IMG/VR virus record: IMGVR_UViG_3300027878_000019
Coordinates: 1-21,206 of that record
Reading direction: 5' to 3' (one strand)
Length of the DNA stretch: 21,206 nt
DNA from: a virus
A program made the translations under genes and the position numbers. Numbering within the stretch: the stretch's first letter is position 1; each line of letters begins with the position of its first letter. The notes under the pieces were generated by a model. It was not told the origin of the DNA and ran no database searches. It saw nothing but the letters and a program-made list of their open reading frames with translations. Positions 8,992-20,891 of this stretch are shown one piece after another.

Positions 8992-9195
8992 TTAGGGATG
9001 CCCTGACTTCATCTGCATTGCAGCGCTCACGGCTATTTCAAATGCCGACGCAGTGCCGGTTTTCTCTCTGATGTTGCGAACATGGCTATAGACGGTATGG
9101 CGGCTAATAATCAACTGCCGCGCTATGATGATCTGACTTTTACCCTGAGCCAACAGAGTGACAACCTCTGTCTCTCGATCTGTTAAAAGTGACAT
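8992..9195 (-). CDS. Mini LuxR/GerE-type helix-turn-helix protein (head-module copy)
   Basis: A 67-residue protein that is essentially only a LuxR/GerE DNA-binding domain. L-T-x-R-E-x-E-V-V at residues 4-12 opens the fold. QGKSQIIIARQLIISRHTVY (about 17-36) covers the helix-turn-helix, and HVRNIREKTGTASAFEIAV is the family-typical recognition and C-terminal helix. There is no receiver or autoinducer domain. The start at 9195 is chosen because GGAGAGGTGGAC lies just before ATG and because the longer reading frame begins inside the upstream gene and lacks such a site. It would bind DNA as a transcription factor; its target is unknown. It sits in the late operon after a small unknown gene and is followed by a hairpin/T-run. 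It is a different sequence from the copy at 18669-18956. Confidence 0.8.
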   Translation of the reverse strand: MSLLTDRETEVVTLLAQGKSQIIIARQLIISRHTVYSHVRNIREKTGTASAFEIAVSAAMQMKSGHP

Positions 9196-9214
9196 GTCCA
9201 CCTCTCCGCTATCC

Positions 9215-9415
9215 TTACAATGGCTTCGCTTGCCGGTAATCCACAACATGCGTCTGGCGTGCGTCTCGTCCCCCAGGCAAGGTAGATTCAACAATCTCTA
9301 GGCGTTCGCTCATAGCATTAATCACATCCACCATAGCGTTGTGCAATGCTCGCATTTCCTCGCCAGATATTGCGTGATCGACATATTTTAGCTTTATCAT
9401 CCGACTTTTTTCCAC
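9215..9415 (-). CDS. Small conserved-looking protein between head morphogenesis and regulator genes, unknown
   Basis: About 66 residues, with the recognisable part reading MIKLKYVDHAISGEEMRALH then NAMVDVINAMSERLEIVEST. A short beta start is followed by a helix with heptad-like spacing, then a polar tail ending VVDYRQAKPL. The GTG at 9415 is chosen as start because AGGAG lies 7 bases upstream. An ATG at 9433 has no site and overlaps the upstream gene, and the ATG at 9400 is another option. I do not recognise a family. The gene lies between the gpF-like gene and the mini LuxR gene, whose strong start is 19 bases beyond this stop. A virion-assembly or accessory role is only a guess. Confidence 0.55.
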   Translation of the reverse strand: MEKSRMIKLKYVDHAISGEEMRALHNAMVDVINAMSERLEIVESTLPGGRDARQTHVVDYRQAKPL

Positions 9416-13333: not shown

Positions 13334-14500
13334 CTATTTCACTAACACCGGCTCGATGCCGGTATGGTCTGCGAATCGTTGAAGTGCTACCGCGACGTAC
13401 GCGGGCGAAAGTTCCACGGCACGACATTTGCGCCCAAGATTCTCGCAGGCGATCAGTGTTGTGCCGCTGCCTAGATAGGTATCAAGGATGATTTTCGGAT
13501 TGCGCTCGAATTGCTCTATGCACCACACAATTACATCTAGAGGCTTTTGAGTAGGATGCGATAATCTATCCTCCCCGCCTTTTCTGATCATGCCATTCCA
13601 CATGTGACGGATAAGTCTTACTGGTTTGTCTAAATTAGTCCACGCCAGTTCACAATCGGCAAATTGATTGCCATCATTTTGCTTATCCCAAACCAAATAG
13701 CATCTAGTTGGCGACAATTCGAAATAGTTGCCGCCCCATAAAATCACCTCGGTAGCTAATGACACAAGATAATCAATTACACTTTTAGTTGGTGTAGAGT
13801 TATCCCAATTTGTATCTGCGTAATGTCTTTTGGACGCGGCTGCGTTGCCGTACTGCTGTCCGCCCTTCTCGTGCATAGATCTATCAACCCCTATCCCATA
13901 AGGCGGATCGGTAAGTAAGGCATCCGCTTTCTCCCCACCCATCAGCCGTGCCACCGTCGCCGCGTCCGTGCAATCGCCACAAATGAGCCGGTGATCACCA
14001 AGCTGCCAAAGCTGGCCTAATGAAACATCCCACTTTGCGCGCAACTCCTCGGCTTTGTCTATCTGTGGCTCTGTGTCGCTGCCTGCGTCTGCCTCCGGTT
14101 CTTCTATGCCCAACTCAAATGCGTCAAAGCCCCAGGATAGTAGATCGTCTACCTCAAATTCATTCGCCAGAATATCGAAATCAAAATCGCCGGTCGTGCC
14201 GCGATGAAGATACACTGTCAGCCGTTCGCGCTCTTTCTCAGACAGTGGACGGCTTGCCACACGCACATCAACCTCATAGTCAAGGCCGTATGCGCCGGCT
14301 AGCACAGATAGCCGCTGGTGCCCGTTGTAGAGTTCGCCGTCATTCGGCCCAATCGCTAGCGTTTCCACCTGGCCGAAGTCGTTGACTGATTCGACTAGGC
14401 GTTCGGCTTGCTTGCTTTTGATGACGCGCGGATTGCGGGGCCACGGTTTGAGGTCGCGGAGTTTGCGCTTCTCGTTCGTCCAGGTGATCGACTTACCCAT
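13334..14500 (-). CDS. ParB-like nuclease domain fused to DNA methyltransferase
   Basis: About 388 residues from ATG at 14500 (GGGTG about 8 bases upstream; the upstream TTG at 14524 is weaker). Residues 1-90 form a ParB/sulfiredoxin-like domain: LRDLKPWPRNPRVIKSKQAE and the active-site-like GELYNGHQRLSVL (GHQR at about 60-63). The rest is a beta-class DNA methyltransferase with catalytic LLTDPPYGIG (about 195-204) and a C-terminal SAM-binding ILDTYLGSGTT (338-348). The DTYLGSGTT replaces the more usual DPF-x-GSGTT. Such fusions are frequent near phage terminases and are thought to methylate phage DNA; the ParB-like part may guide or regulate binding. It overlaps the preceding gene by 8 bases and is followed by the small terminase. 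Target site unknown. It is a second, distinct methyltransferase in this window. Confidence 0.9.
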   Translation of the reverse strand: MGKSITWTNEKRKLRDLKPWPRNPRVIKSKQAERLVESVNDFGQVETLAIGPNDGELYNGHQRLSVLAGAYGLDYEVDVRVASRPLSEKERERLTVYLHRGTTGDFDFDILANEFEVDDLLSWGFDAFELGIEEPEADAGSDTEPQIDKAEELRAKWDVSLGQLWQLGDHRLICGDCTDAATVARLMGGEKADALLTDPPYGIGVDRSMHEKGGQQYGNAAASKRHYADTNWDNSTPTKSVIDYLVSLATEVILWGGNYFELSPTRCYLVWDKQNDGNQFADCELAWTNLDKPVRLIRHMWNGMIRKGGEDRLSHPTQKPLDVIVWCIEQFERNPKIILDTYLGSGTTLIACENLGRKCRAVELSPAYVAVALQRFADHTGIEPVLVK

Positions 14501-14834
14501 CTGCAACACCCGCCATCTGTTCAATGCTAAATTTGGCTTGTGCCCTGCCCGTCAAGCCGCTGCCCACCGTGCTGTTGTACGTCCAGCTAACCGTAATCAC
14601 ACGCTGTAGCGCGTTTCCGGCAATCGCCAAATCGTTGCCGGTCAGTGCGAAGACCACCGTTGCCGCGGGTGCCACCACTACGGCGGCGCGATTATTGATG
14701 ACGGTGCCGCGCCGGTCTGTTAGCATCCATGTTATCGTGAGCGGCGTAACGGCGGTGCCGTCTTCATCGGTAAACGGGCCGACCGTGACTTTGGCCGTCC
14801 CTTTTTCCGCTGGTGTGACACTGATGTCAATCAT
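14493..14834 (-). CDS. Small beta-sandwich-like virion protein, unknown
   Basis: About 113 residues from ATG at 14834 (MIDISVTPAEKGTAKVTVGP), with GAGGA about 6 bases upstream; its ATG overlaps the upstream TGA as ATGA. Alternating hydrophobic residues (PLTITWMLTDRRGTVINNRA, ATVVFALTGNDLAIAG, RVITVSWTYNSTVGSGL) and the T-W/Y pairs give the look of an immunoglobulin-like or bacterial Ig-type beta sandwich. Small Ig-like proteins of this kind often decorate phage virions. No catalytic motif is visible. It joins the block of small structural-looking genes before the methyltransferase. The beta fold is judged by eye; function is unknown. Confidence 0.6.
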   Translation of the reverse strand: MIDISVTPAEKGTAKVTVGPFTDEDGTAVTPLTITWMLTDRRGTVINNRAAVVVAPAATVVFALTGNDLAIAGNALQRVITVSWTYNSTVGSGLTGRAQAKFSIEQMAGVADG

Positions 14835-16395: not shown

Positions 16396-17282
16396 ACCAG
16401 TGTACCTTTGCTTTGGGCCGGTGATGTCGGTCTCAGATTGAAGTTGCCGCCTGCTACATTCTCAAAAAGCGGATTGGTGGTGAAGTTGGCTGTGCCAGCG
16501 GGCACAGTTGTAATATTGAAAAAACCAGAGTTTGAGAGTGCATTGGTGTTGTGTGTGCCGCTGCCACCCCTGTAATTTACCGTCAGGCCGCTAGCATTCG
16601 AGATAATCGAATTTTTGATAATGATGGCTATGGTTGGGTTAGTTCCGGCGTTGCCAGCTAGAAAGAACAATGTTTGGATTCGATTCGCACCAGTATTCGC
16701 TATATAAATGACAGTATTCTGTAAATCCCAGGTGATGACCATGTTTGTTGTGCCGAACGTCCTCCCACCGAATAGGGCGTTTTGGCCCGCCGATGTGATG
16801 TCGTTAATCAGGCAGGATATCAGGCGATAGGTTGGGTTACCTGTTAGCGAAAACGCCGTACCGATTAGGCCACCCTCGCCTGATACTGCGTGCGATATGG
16901 ATATATTGCCGAATGTACATCGCTGAAATAAATACAATCCGTCCGCACCCCCTGAGAAAAGTGGCGCACTAGACGTAGCAGTGGCATTTGTAAATCTGAG
17001 ACCGTTTTTCACCATGTTGGGCACTAACACCCAACTGATGGTCGCTGCTGCACCGTCGAAAATCGCCAGTCCGGTATTTTCTGCCTGAATTGTCAGAGAC
17101 TTCGTAAATGTCTGACTACTCCAAGTATGTGTCCCGTCTTTGCAGATGATTGTGTCGCCACTGGCAGCGCTCGTGTGCGCCTTGCTAATGGTGAGCCACG
17201 GCAACAGGGTGGTTCCCGTTCCGTTCGTATCGTGGCCTGGGGTTGTAGCGTGTGAGGCTGGAGCTATAAAAAAAGTTGGCAT
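16392..17282 (-). CDS. Parallel beta-helix spike-like protein
   Basis: A 296-residue protein beginning MPTFFIAPASHATTPGHDTN. The opening 'D-x-N-G-T-G-T-x-L-x-P-W-L-T-I-S-K-A' followed by AASGDTIICKDGTHTWSS is the typical start of right-handed beta-helix (DUF1565/pectate-lyase-like) proteins. The rest alternates short strands and Asn/Gly/Thr turns (SLTIQAENTGLAIFDGA, MVITWDLQNTVIYIANTG, NPTIAIIIKNSIISNASG). The end (NPLFENVAGGNFNLRPTSPA) is a classic beta-helix C-terminal motif ('N-P-x-F...G-N-F-x-L-x-P-x-S-P-A'). It would act as receptor-binding spike or depolymerase; no catalytic residues can be assigned. It starts at the stop of the tail-fibre gene (TGATG). Confidence 0.75.
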   Translation of the reverse strand: MPTFFIAPASHATTPGHDTNGTGTTLLPWLTISKAHTSAASGDTIICKDGTHTWSSQTFTKSLTIQAENTGLAIFDGAAATISWVLVPNMVKNGLRFTNATATSSAPLFSGGADGLYLFQRCTFGNISISHAVSGEGGLIGTAFSLTGNPTYRLISCLINDITSAGQNALFGGRTFGTTNMVITWDLQNTVIYIANTGANRIQTLFFLAGNAGTNPTIAIIIKNSIISNASGLTVNYRGGSGTHNTNALSNSGFFNITTVPAGTANFTTNPLFENVAGGNFNLRPTSPAQSKGTLV

Positions 17283-18310
17283 CAGCTTGTTATTGTTCTC
17301 CCGACTATCTGTGCGTGCGCAGGATACGCGCCCATGCTCGTGACGTATCCCTGCGTGAGTGGCAAGCCGTTCAACCCTAGCGCATCACTGTTTCCCGACA
17401 TTACTTCAATCCAACTCGTGAACCCAATCGGCCTGTGTTCCAATTCGTATTGCCCACTGACTGAATCCTCACGAAAGCGGAAACCTGTCACGACATCATT
17501 CCAGACACCTAACAGGTAGATTTGCAGCACACCGGACGATACCCGAATGCTGCCCGTGGTCGTGTTGTCGTTGCCGCCGATGGTAGAGTTGCTGATTGTC
17601 TTGTCGGTGATGCTGGCAGCGCTGTATCCCGCACGGTCGTTCTGCACCATCGGGGGTAGCAGTCCCATGTCAACCGCGTTCGGCTGCGCAATCAGTTCCA
17701 ATGGCGCAACGTACCAAGCCGAGCCGTCCCATACGAGCATTTCCAGCGTATCAGTCGCCAGCGCAACCGTGCGCACGGTTGGCGACGATGCCAGAATGGT
17801 GGCTCGTGTGTTGCTCACTACCGTGTATTGCGTGTGCGGATTGGGCAAGCCAACGTGAGCGGTAATCAGCCCCGCCGCCGTGCCAGCGGACTCAAACGCT
17901 GCGCTGCTCAACCCGTCTAGTAAATCAGCGTCCAGACCGCTACCGCTGCCGTCTACCGTGAGCAATTTGGTCAACACATCCGCTGCCGTGTAACCGCTTG
18001 CCAACAGATACGCAGTGCTGGCCTGTGTCGCCATCGTGCCAAGTCCCAGCGTCGTGCGTGCTGCTGTAGCGTTTGCGTCATCCACCAGCGTTGCGCCATA
18101 TGCGCTGATGCCGTGCGCCGTGGTCAGCGCTTGGTGCGCAGACACAGCAGCAGAAGCAGCGCCGAATGGTTCAACCGATAGTGGCACATACGTATATGTG
18201 CCACTATCCCACACCCAGGCTTTGCCGGAGTCGGTCGCGCCAGCGGCGGGCTTTGTCCACTCGCCATAATCGGTATATAGTTTAGATGGTGCAAACACGC
18301 CTACGGGCAT
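17282..18310 (-). CDS. Tail fibre protein
   Basis: A 342-residue protein with typical fibre modules. AVSAHQALTTAHGISAYGAT and ANATAARTTLGLGTMATQ (around residues 55-95) match the 'H-x-x-x-x-x-x-A-H-G...A-R-x-x-L-x-L-G-T' repeats of tail fibres. GSGLDADLLDGLSSAAFE (about 122-140) matches the 'S-G-L-D-A-D-x-L-D-G' fibre motif, and GLPNPHTQYT follows. The C-terminal third is beta-rich (TTTGSIRVSSGVLQIYLLGV, FREDSVSGQYELEH) and would form the distal tip. It acts in host attachment outside the cell. Codons 35-45 lie in a perfect 14-bp inverted repeat. No clear ribosome-binding site precedes its ATG, only 6 bases after the holin stop, suggesting coupling. Confidence 0.8.
   Translation of the reverse strand: MPVGVFAPSKLYTDYGEWTKPAAGATDSGKAWVWDSGTYTYVPLSVEPFGAASAAVSAHQALTTAHGISAYGATLVDDANATAARTTLGLGTMATQASTAYLLASGYTAADVLTKLLTVDGSGSGLDADLLDGLSSAAFESAGTAAGLITAHVGLPNPHTQYTVVSNTRATILASSPTVRTVALATDTLEMLVWDGSAWYVAPLELIAQPNAVDMGLLPPMVQNDRAGYSAASITDKTISNSTIGGNDNTTTGSIRVSSGVLQIYLLGVWNDVVTGFRFREDSVSGQYELEHRPIGFTSWIEVMSGNSDALGLNGLPLTQGYVTSMGAYPAHAQIVGRTITS
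18177..18208. repeat. Perfect 14-bp inverted repeat with 4-base loop inside the tail-fibre gene
   Basis: GATAGTGGCACATA at 18177-18190 and its exact complement TATGTGCCACTATC at 18195-18208 flank a CGTA loop. The hairpin falls near the 5' end of the tail-fibre coding sequence (roughly codons 35-45, SGTYTYVPLSV). The symmetry is complete with no mismatches. Confidence 0.85.
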
Positions 18311-18316
18311 TTTAGA

Positions 18317-18664
18317 TTATCCTAGCGCTCGTGTGTTTGCCGAACGTGACGCATTGACTAGCCGTCCCTTGAAAATATCTACCGCGCCCTCGATGATATT
18401 GCGGAGGGCACCGATGTTGATTTCGGGATGAGCCTCTTTTAGCTCATCCAGCACGTACTGCAATTTCCGACCGTTTGCCGTGTCCCACGTCTCGCCCTCG
18501 CGCGGCTTAATCATCTCCTCAGCGTCGATGACGAGCTTCAGCGCCAACTCGAACAGGCTTGATTGTGCTCCCCCATCGATATTTCGACCACGCCACCATG
18601 AGTAAACGGACAGGCCGCCGCTCAGGATAAGAAACGCTACGATCACAATCATTGAGGTATCCAT
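18317..18664 (-). CDS. Putative holin (phage LL-H type)
   Basis: A 115-residue protein with one N-terminal membrane segment (about residues 4-24, MIVIVAFLILSGGLSVYSWW) and an amphipathic cytoplasmic part. The pattern LKLVIDAEEMIKPREGETWD then GRKLQYVLDELKEAHPEINI and ALRNIIEGAVDIFK fits the LL-H-type holin layout: a hydrophobic start, an 'A-x-x-x-x-x-A-E-x' helix, a 'G-x-K-L-x-Y-V' helix and a final helix. Holins make the membrane lesion that lets lysis enzymes through. GAGGAG lies 8 bases before ATG. It is between the mini LuxR gene and the tail fibre. No endolysin is recognised in the window. Confidence is moderate because such small membrane proteins vary. Confidence 0.65.
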   Translation of the reverse strand: MDTSMIVIVAFLILSGGLSVYSWWRGRNIDGGAQSSLFELALKLVIDAEEMIKPREGETWDTANGRKLQYVLDELKEAHPEINIGALRNIIEGAVDIFKGRLVNASRSANTRALG

Positions 18665-18668
18665 GTTA

Positions 18669-18956
18669 TTACTCCTCTATGCCATTTAGGTTTGCCGGTC
18701 GCTCTATGCGTCCAGTCACCATTAATACTAATTCTACCAAGTTACGCGCTCCGGTTTTGGTGTAAATATAATGTTGGTGTGACACCACCGAGCATTGCGT
18801 CATGCCAAGATGCCTGCCAATCTCCTTACCTGTCACATGCCCAGCCAACACAGAACGAATCACACGTTCCTCAGATGGTGTTAAACTCAACCCGTGTCCT
18901 TGGCCCGTCTCCATCAGAATTCTGCGGTTAGGCTGGGCTTTGCGTTTCGCCATCAT
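18669..18956 (-). CDS. Mini LuxR/GerE-type helix-turn-helix protein (lysis-module copy)
   Basis: A 95-residue protein. A basic tail (MMAKRKAQPNRRILMETG) precedes a GerE-type DNA-binding domain at about 25-80: L-T-P-S-E-E-R-V-I-R-S-V-L-A-G, then TGKEIGRHLGMTQCSVVSHQ covering the turn and recognition helix, and YTKTGARNLVELVLMV as the last helix. There is no sensor domain. AGGGG lies about 7 bases before ATG. It lies between the lyase and holin genes, in a late region where a transcription factor is unusual. It shares the fold but little identity with the copy at 8992-9195. It may control late genes or act on host regulators; neither can be shown from sequence. Confidence 0.8.
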   Translation of the reverse strand: MMAKRKAQPNRRILMETGQGHGLSLTPSEERVIRSVLAGHVTGKEIGRHLGMTQCSVVSHQHYIYTKTGARNLVELVLMVTGRIERPANLNGIEE

Positions 18957-18965
18957 GCGACGCCC

Positions 18966-20891
18966 CTAGCCGCCACTCAGCGAAGACGTGTCAGCCTTGA
19001 TGAAAGCCTTTAGCGCAGCGATAGCTGTCGGCGTGCCCGTAACCGTCAGGCTGGACGTGTTGGGCGGGTCGACGGGTGGATCGACAGGTGTCGGGTTCAC
19101 AGGTGGCACGACAACGCCTGGTGCGCGTCCGGTACAAACCCCATTGTGGCACACTTGAAGCGCGTAGATCGTGACCTCGGCATAGTCGGATTTGCCATCG
19201 GGCAGCTTAGTAACAATGCCACCGGCTTGGTTGTAGGAGCCAGCCTTGAAATAACAGCCGCTGAGTTCCTTGGTCTGTGTATAGGCCACCAGCTGGCCGT
19301 TGTAGGTATAGGTTATTTTCCCGCCAGCCACCTGGAACCCTACGCGGAATTTGGTGCCTAGTCGATAGCTATCGGTGACTTTGTACCCTTCCGATTTGTC
19401 ACCATCGGTAATCCATAGACTCCCAATACTGCGGTCGCCAGTGGTGTTGCCGACTAGACGGAATACGGTTACATCGTCATTGCCATCGTGGATTTGCCCT
19501 ACCACAACGACAGGCTTACTGCCGATTGGAAGGACACTAACCATCTGCTCAATATCCATCGAATGCGTGCCCGTGGTCGATGACCATGCGGCTTGTGTTT
19601 TACCATCGGGTGACATCTCGCGCAATTCAGAACGTGGGTTCTTGGAGTTCTTGGTCGTTGCCCCGTCTGTGGGTGCCTTGAAGATGACGCCGTCCTTGGC
19701 ACTATTCAAATAGAACCATTCGCCACTATACATCAGCAGTCCGGGGATTTTCACTGTGTCCGGTGTAGTCTTCACCTTGCTAGGCAACGTGACGTACCAG
19801 CCATTCGATGCAATTACGTCCATTGGATAGGTTACTGTACCAGTCGGTGGCGGGTCAACTGGCGGCGGGTCTACAGGTGGTGGTTCCACTGGTGGTTCCA
19901 CTGGTGGCGCGGTGCCCGCTTTTGCGTGCGTCCAATCGGTGTACCCCATATTCTTACCAGACGTTGCCGCTGTTGTCGGGTAGCTTGTCCCGGCGTATGC
20001 GTTGACTAGCCAGGTGATCCAGGTATCGTCACTGGCTGCGGGGTTCTTGAATGCCGGACTATTGCCCGCCGCCGCACCGGTACCGTAGAGGATATCCATT
20101 GCCCGCACAATCGCGTTGTCGGACTCATTGAACGCTACCCACCCAGCACGGTGCAAAATAACCGCACAGACAACCAAGCCCTGCATACCCTCCCACATAT
20201 AGCCGCTTGGTGACGGGAGCCACTTGTAGCTCGCGGCACGTCGCCAATCTTCGGCAAGTACGCCGGACAGTGTGAATGCGCCTCTTTTGGCATCAGGCCG
20301 GTTGATACCCGCCTGTGGTGTGCCAGCGTGCCAATCGGTCGACGTGTATTTCATCTTGTTCCCCGGTGCGTATGCCCCGATGAAGGCGCGGTGCGCAATG
20401 ATGATCATCGCTATCCAGTCGGCACGCCCCGTATACACCGCGGCGGCGGCTAGGCTCGCCCGGGCGTGACCACCCCAATTGTTGGCGGATTGCTCGGCTG
20501 TGCCGATAACGCCGTCGCCACCAGAATGGCCTTGCACGTTGGCCGTGGTAGCTTTCTCTACCCACGTCAGAAAAGCTGCATCACGGTAGCCGATGATATC
20601 AGCGGCAATAATGTAGGTTTGCAGACCGCGTGATAACTCCAGCGCTCGGGCAAACTTTGACGCCATTGCCGAAACGAGGCCTGCAATCGTCTTATCGCGC
20701 ATGGCATTGTCGGCATTGCGCACGGCCACCAGTGCCCCGGCAAGGGTCAGCACATCGTGCTTGCTGTTGTTGTCGGACAGGTCAGCGCTGCCCCAGCTAC
20801 TGTTGGCAGCGCTTAGAACACTACTCCATGCAGCGCCGCTTGTGGGCAATGCTGCGATCTCTTCTGGCGAAATCCAAATTGACATTGACAT
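18966..20891 (-). CDS. Two-domain polysaccharide lyase (alginate-lyase-like toroid + PL7-like jelly roll)
   Basis: A 641-residue protein with AGGAG about 10 bases before ATG. Residues 1-325 form an alpha-helical alginate-lyase-like domain; NNWGGHARASLAAA (137-150) matches the N-N-W/H... motif carrying catalytic Asn/His in (alpha/alpha) toroid lyases. A Pro-rich linker follows (329-350). Residues 352-588 show the three PL7 signatures: RSELREM (420-426), QIH (466-468) and YFKAGSYNQ (547-555), which hold the catalytic Arg, His and Tyr of jelly-roll alginate lyases. A second Pro-rich linker (595-610) leads to a 30-residue tail. It would cleave uronate polymers (alginate-like or glucuronan) of capsule or biofilm by beta-elimination. 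No signal peptide. It lies beside holin, fibre and spike genes, so it may be a virion depolymerase or released at lysis. Substrate not proven. Confidence 0.85.
   Translation of the reverse strand: MSMSIWISPEEIAALPTSGAAWSSVLSAANSSWGSADLSDNNSKHDVLTLAGALVAVRNADNAMRDKTIAGLVSAMASKFARALELSRGLQTYIIAADIIGYRDAAFLTWVEKATTANVQGHSGGDGVIGTAEQSANNWGGHARASLAAAAVYTGRADWIAMIIIAHRAFIGAYAPGNKMKYTSTDWHAGTPQAGINRPDAKRGAFTLSGVLAEDWRRAASYKWLPSPSGYMWEGMQGLVVCAVILHRAGWVAFNESDNAIVRAMDILYGTGAAAGNSPAFKNPAASDDTWITWLVNAYAGTSYPTTAATSGKNMGYTDWTHAKAGTAPPVEPPVEPPPVDPPPVDPPPTGTVTYPMDVIASNGWYVTLPSKVKTTPDTVKIPGLLMYSGEWFYLNSAKDGVIFKAPTDGATTKNSKNPRSELREMSPDGKTQAAWSSTTGTHSMDIEQMVSVLPIGSKPVVVVGQIHDGNDDVTVFRLVGNTTGDRSIGSLWITDGDKSEGYKVTDSYRLGTKFRVGFQVAGGKITYTYNGQLVAYTQTKELSGCYFKAGSYNQAGGIVTKLPDGKSDYAEVTIYALQVCHNGVCTGRAPGVVVPPVNPTPVDPPVDPPNTSSLTVTGTPTAIAALKAFIKADTSSLSGG
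19842..19907 (-). repeat. Pro-rich linker repeat (PPVEPP / PPVDPP) in the lyase gene
   Basis: This stretch encodes residues 329-350 of the lyase and consists of tandem Pro-Pro-Val-Glu/Asp units. At DNA level, GGTGGTTCCACT occurs twice in a row (19879-19890, 19891-19902) with related units on both sides. A similar PPV-NP/DPP linker recurs at 19062-19109. Such linkers separate independently folding domains. Confidence 0.8.

Follow-up and report, generated by a model that had tools for sequence, protein, structure and literature searches.

The two-domain lyase gene and its surroundings

The window—the whole 21,206-nucleotide stretch analysed here—comes from a 21.2-kb uncultured virus record with genes for terminase, portal, major capsid, and tail fibre, each of them on the minus strand. 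It also encodes a 641-residue protein combining an N-terminal toroid lyase-like domain with a C-terminal PL7 (Alginate_lyase2) domain (Table 1). A preliminary description of this DNA had read the ORF as one phage protein with two unrelated lyase folds, which holds: PL7 is recognised by Pfam and by its match to the 1UAI structure, and the toroid by its predicted fold together with PF05426 matches of its family. The repetitive Pro-rich linker described between the domains is present as well, and more repeats follow in a second linker. The N-terminus lacks a hydrophobic stretch, in line with the claimed absence of a signal peptide, and no recognised virion anchor is fused to the protein.

Table 1. 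Features of the two-domain lyase gene and its downstream neighbours in the window (aa, residues of the lyase protein)
Feature	Position	Strand	Remarks
Two-domain polysaccharide lyase gene	18966..20891	minus	641 aa, one uninterrupted ORF; also fused in the sibling phage (L002:8004-9887)
N-terminal toroid lyase-like domain, aa 1-325	19917..20891	minus	AlphaFold2 model, VIA-align, PF05426 in relatives
NNWGGH, aa 137-142	20466..20483	minus	Asn138 ~ BoPL38 N242, Trp139 ~ catalytic H243 (motif alignment)
Arg217-Arg218	20238..20243	minus	invariant 14/14; Arg218 ~ Arg of the PL38 DGS-P-E--R motif
Tyr231, proposed catalytic Tyr	20199..20201	minus	invariant; ~ BoPL38 Y298, A1-III Y246
Pro-rich repeat linker, aa 326-352 (repeats aa 329-349)	19836..19916	minus	length differs between siblings
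PL7 (Alginate_lyase2) domain, aa 353-583	19143..19835	minus	PF08787 and 1UAI matches
RSELRE, aa 420-425	19617..19634	minus	PL7 motif
QIHD, aa 466-469 (QIH 466-468)	19485..19496	minus	PL7 motif
YFKAGSYNQ, aa 547-555	19227..19253	minus	PL7 motif
Second Pro-rich linker (repeats aa 597-610) and ~30-aa C-terminal tail	18969..19142	minus	kept in sibling
Tail-fibre-like protein, downstream of lyase gene	17282..18310	minus	phrog_7389 E 7e-9
Small membrane protein, weak holin-like match	18317..18664	minus	phrog_6918 E 0.049; no Pfam match

The fusion is conserved. A distinct sibling phage contig (L002, 64 kb) carries the same fused ORF with identical domain order and a shorter Pro-rich linker, encoding a protein 83% identical to that of the window; hence, an assembly chimera or artefact is ruled out. 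Between the two phages, the toroid shows a dN/dS of 0.14 and PL7 one of 0.20, which marks purifying selection on both domains. A near-identical phage is absent from the GenBank phage collection.

The preliminary description also saw holin and adhesion genes beside this gene. Of these, the tail-fibre neighbour is supported; the holin has a weak profile match, and another small protein occupies its place in the sibling. Directly after the lyase gene lies a gene for a LuxR/GerE-type DNA-binding protein (18669-18956), and a second protein of LuxR/GerE-like appearance is encoded among the structural genes (8992-9294). Two N6/N4 DNA methyltransferases are encoded at 947-2182 and 13334-14524, one of them just upstream of the terminase genes. 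In the sibling, the protein two genes upstream of the lyase (L002:6850-7653) shows a weak match to CHAT, a caspase-like protease domain (PF12770, E 0.0025, under the cut-off), and probably has a membrane helix at its C-terminus; the window stops before the corresponding gene. Two sibling-side proteins (L002, L047-L049) carry a surface-type "YLPI" motif, which might hint at a Chloroflexota host.

The PL7 domain and its phage relatives

Judged by its sequence, the C-terminal domain is clearly a PL7 jelly-roll lyase. PF08787 matches the ORF with E 7e-41 and 140.9 bits (cut-off 29.7) over profile positions 4-225 of 225. The closest solved structure is the polyguluronate lyase 1UAI (E 2.4e-44, aa 354-583), and AlgAT5 (5ZQI) matches with E 2e-41; against both, the whole domain aligns with catalytic motifs at the same spacing, whereas these structures are single-domain catalytic chains without a toroid partner. 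All three hallmark motifs of the preliminary description—RSELRE, QIH, and YFKAGSYNQ—are found. The catalytic residues of A1-II' (R146/E148/R150, Q189/H191, and Y278/K280/Y284/Q286), a set whose His, Gln, Tyr, and Arg roles in PL7 catalysis have been described (PMC8286568), recur at identical spacing as 420/422/424, 466/468, and 547/549/553/555.

In the GenBank phage collection, a Pseudomonas phage gives a 31% match confined to the PL7 region. A PL7 scan returned 15 viral loci, one being the sibling; the others include L020 and one look-alike pair. None of the 14 other loci encodes a toroid within the fetched DNA, and among the viral records examined only window and sibling unite both domains. 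In these phages, PL7 is often part of a large tail-type protein. It shares a chain with a DUF5047 domain in L058 and is joined to a weakly matched right-handed beta-helix in L053 (4902-7079), an independent pairing with a different fold. In L060 (4224-7703), downstream of a tail-type protein, it is combined with a PhoD-like phosphatase domain and short inter-domain repeats. At L055 (4740-5612), PL7 follows a segment that resembles a peptidoglycan-binding domain, without Pfam support.

A divergent toroid family in phages and bacteria

Structure prediction of residues 1-325, which the preliminary description had named as a check on its toroid claim, returned a toroid lyase fold. The AlphaFold2 model, built from a five-sequence alignment, has a mean pLDDT of 79 and a pTM of 0.86; its stretch 216-228, beside the proposed catalytic Arg and Tyr, falls below a pLDDT of 50. 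VIA-align superimposes it on PL17, PL5, PL35, and PL38 toroid lyases with Z 18-21, best on PL17 (7BJT, Z 21.3, rmsd 2.8, 257 residues), followed by PL5 A1-III (Z 20.8) and PL38 (Z 19.2) with 266-275 residues aligned to PL5/PL38. Identities in these matches are only 9-15% (~10% to A1-III). The top Foldseek matches in the PDB are PL17, PL38-type, PL5, PL8, and PL39 lyases, with E values that all exceed 0.001, and a BFVD search with the model gave no convincing viral match. Against PF05426 (Alginate_lyase), the toroid domain of the window alone stays under the cut-off (E 0.0023, 17.9 bits, cut-off 22.2), and 11 of the 14 aligned family members match with E 0.01 or better, the best with 1.7e-11. 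These family-wide matches and the fold matches up to Z 21 rule out a chance resemblance and show, at the level of a model, that the domain belongs to the toroid-lyase fold class. The C-terminal beta domain with a second catalytic His, as in PL17, PL15, and PL39, is absent: the toroid stops at ~aa 325 and is followed by the Pro-rich linker and PL7.

Relatives of the toroid occur in the sibling phage (89% identical), in two Patescibacteria MAGs (~60%), in an Acidimicrobiia MAG (39%), and in another eleven IMG/VR records, among them L010 and L011 with one identical protein. In the sampled genomes the family is rare (1/296 in the phylum of the Acidimicrobiia homologue L006, 3/287 in that of L004), and PHROGs hold no family for it. 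In an unrooted FastTree phylogeny, the two Patescibacteria proteins cluster with those of window and sibling (support 1.00), and the Acidimicrobiia protein lies next to this group, all among viral sequences; the tree suggests an exchange of the toroid gene between phages and cells, in one direction or the other. The Acidimicrobiia gene itself (L006:1152-5685) sits beside glycosyltransferase-like and chain-length-determinant-like genes, as in an exopolysaccharide operon. The N-terminal domain represents a divergent, uncharacterised lyase-like family shared by unrelated phages, and is the main novelty of the protein.

Ten positions are invariant in all 14 members: N138, R217, R218, Y231, W233, E234, Q237, D288, D289, and K313. 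As neither the toroid domain nor its family profile gave a significant direct sequence match to the PL5/PL38 structures of the PDB, residues were mapped through a bridging actinobacterial protein (L028; E 4e-63 to BoPL38, E 3e-4 to PL5 A1-III). This protein carries NNHG followed by DGS-P-E--R---Y, in register with NNWG and DG-LP-(E/D)-(E/D)--RR...Y of the toroid family; the mapping is a motif alignment and not a structural superposition, and an attempt to align the family profile directly with L028/L029 was unsuccessful. By this mapping, N138 corresponds to N242 of BoPL38, W139 to H243, R218 to the motif Arg, and Y231 to Y298. The catalytic Tyr and the supporting Arg of PL5/PL38 hence find counterparts in Y231 and R218. 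Their Asn-His pair does not: position 139 is Trp in 13 of 14 members and His only in the cellular homologue L006. Of the earlier description as a helical toroid lyase-like domain with an NNWG-H motif, the fold stands (Z 19-20.8 to PL5/PL38), and the motif departs from the NNHG that is canonical for these two families; the toroid is neither a canonical PL5 nor a canonical PL38 lyase, and alginate cannot be called as its substrate.

The consequences can be read from characterised toroids. In PL5, roles of Asn, His, Tyr, and Arg in catalysis have been described (PMC8286568). In BoPL38, mannuronate loses its proton to Y298 in a syn elimination and guluronate to H243 in an anti elimination (PMC13169297). 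In the PL35 enzyme GAGase III, mutation of the corresponding His abolished activity on alginate, whereas for glycosaminoglycans this His was dispensable (PMC12088678). The loss of the His might hence mean that the phage toroid does not cut alginate, or that it is inactive. H142, one helical turn past W139 and kept in 13 of 14 members, could in part stand in for the missing His.

An inactive toroid could serve as a polysaccharide binder akin to a carbohydrate-binding module and leave all cutting to PL7. The Trp in place of the paired catalytic His fits this option, as an aromatic side chain there would lend itself to stacking against sugars in the cleft, and so does the His retained by the cellular homologue. 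We nevertheless regard it as unlikely, since Asn138, Arg217/218, Tyr231, Glu234, and Lys313 do not vary among the 14 members, diverse as these are, and the dN/dS of the toroid between window and sibling is low. Most family members, moreover, bear the toroid as a standalone domain without another lyase, which is easier to reconcile with an enzyme than with a binding module, and PL5 and PL38 can use Tyr as the base for mannuronate (PMC8286568, PMC13169297).

Proposed action and comparison with known systems

We infer activity, substrates, and location of the protein, and consider it rather probable that it is a phage two-domain depolymerase of uronic-acid polymers, with PL7 and a single-domain toroid from a new family associated with phages kept apart on a flexible Pro-rich tether. 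Both domains would cut by beta-elimination. In PL7, Arg420 and Gln466 would hold the carboxylate, with His468 and Tyr553 as base and acid; because of its QIH motif and its closeness to a polyguluronate lyase, this domain probably prefers guluronate. In the toroid, Asn138 would neutralise the carboxylate and Tyr231, aided by Arg218, would both abstract and donate the proton; going by the residue roles in BoPL38 and GAGase III, this predicts a syn elimination that targets units of the mannuronate or glucuronate type, with Trp139 marking the loss of the His with which PL38 acts on guluronate. Between them, the two domains would hence cover different bonds or different polymers.

This bears on the two pairings offered by the preliminary description. 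Exolytic toroid families such as PL15 and PL17 carry an extra beta domain, and single-domain toroids such as A1-III as well as 1UAI-like PL7 enzymes are endo-acting. With that beta domain missing here, an endo plus exo pairing becomes the weaker option, and complementary specificity for blocks or for polymers would fit better, by analogy to A1-I. A more far-reaching idea, to which we attach only limited credence, is that the toroid defines a new polysaccharide-lyase family, spread widely among phages, whose Asn-Trp pair serves to cut a uronan other than alginate, and that together with PL7 it opens two chemically distinct exopolysaccharides at the same time.

The phage probably produces the protein at a late stage of infection, and the protein would act on the virion or after lysis, clearing exopolysaccharide of the host or of a biofilm. 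A virion-associated or lysis-released depolymerase is the most likely and best reading in view of the tail-type PL7 relatives, the tail-fibre neighbour, the missing signal peptide, and the toroid gene of L008, which is flanked by genes for a head-tail adaptor and a major tail protein. If the gene were instead an auxiliary metabolic one, its product would be a soluble lyase releasing sugars from polysaccharide outside the cell to nourish the infected host. This interpretation has been given to viral PL6 alginate lyases (PMC12285232), and the toroid relatives L008 and L009 bear hydrophobic, signal-peptide-like N-termini; yet the protein of the window, lacking a signal peptide, could gain access to an external polymer only once the cell has lysed. 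The scanned proteins of window and sibling include no recognised transporter or uronate-catabolism enzyme, and the lyase gene lies near tail-fibre and terminase genes, all of which makes this option improbable. Equally improbable is a substitute or partner of an endolysin whose target at lysis would be a wall or sheath polymer of uronic acids in some unusual host: Pfam recognised no peptidoglycan hydrolase among the 52 sibling-phage proteins, which leaves room for a role at lysis, and a small membrane protein gene lies nearby, but its holin match is weak and the gene is replaced in the sibling, an endolysin may exist unrecognised, and PL7 relatives are built into large proteins that show features of phage tails.

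Phages that degrade alginate have been on record since 1977, yet a review gives the sequences of their enzymes as not determined. The genes described here offer concrete candidates, namely the PL7 module seen in several tail-type proteins of phages and the toroid family, which lacks an annotation and spans phages that differ widely in G+C content. Provided that it is active, the toroid–PL7 pair would be a natural dual-specificity enzyme for biofilm stripping, and its Asn-Trp variant would test the need for the catalytic His in toroid lyases. Within our partial coverage of the literature, no paper describing a phage PL7–toroid fusion was found; a 2025 study presented viral PL6 lyases as not described from viral genomes before (PMC12285232).

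The alginate lyases of Azotobacter and Pseudomonas phages, known biochemically and with the sequences of PT6 and the Azotobacter phage listed as not determined (PMC5380687), are likewise phage lyases that strip a uronic-acid polysaccharide. Compared with virion depolymerases, the present protein bears two non-beta-helix folds on one chain and is, by the tests run, not a trimeric tailspike. The PL7 proteins of L058 and L053 share its phage setting and lack the toroid. BoPL38 (8BDQ) and A1-III (1QAZ) are single-domain toroids as well, with Z 19-20.5 and with Asn, the DG--P-E--R motif, and Tyr conserved; they differ by an identity of 10-14%, by His243/His192 at the position of Trp139, and by a 7-residue insertion between Arg and Tyr. 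The closest parallel in architecture is A1-I of Sphingomonas sp. A1, a PL5 plus PL7 precursor on one polypeptide (PMC9781882, PMC7287115), so that the combination of toroid and PL7 has a bacterial precedent and is not new in kind. Both proteins join a helical toroid and a PL7 jelly roll on one chain, and the specificities within A1-I are complementary. By contrast, A1-I is bacterial, processes itself into A1-II and A1-III, and bears a true PL5 toroid with the catalytic His, whereas the present protein is phage-borne, has neither a signal peptide nor signs of processing, and carries Trp in place of His.
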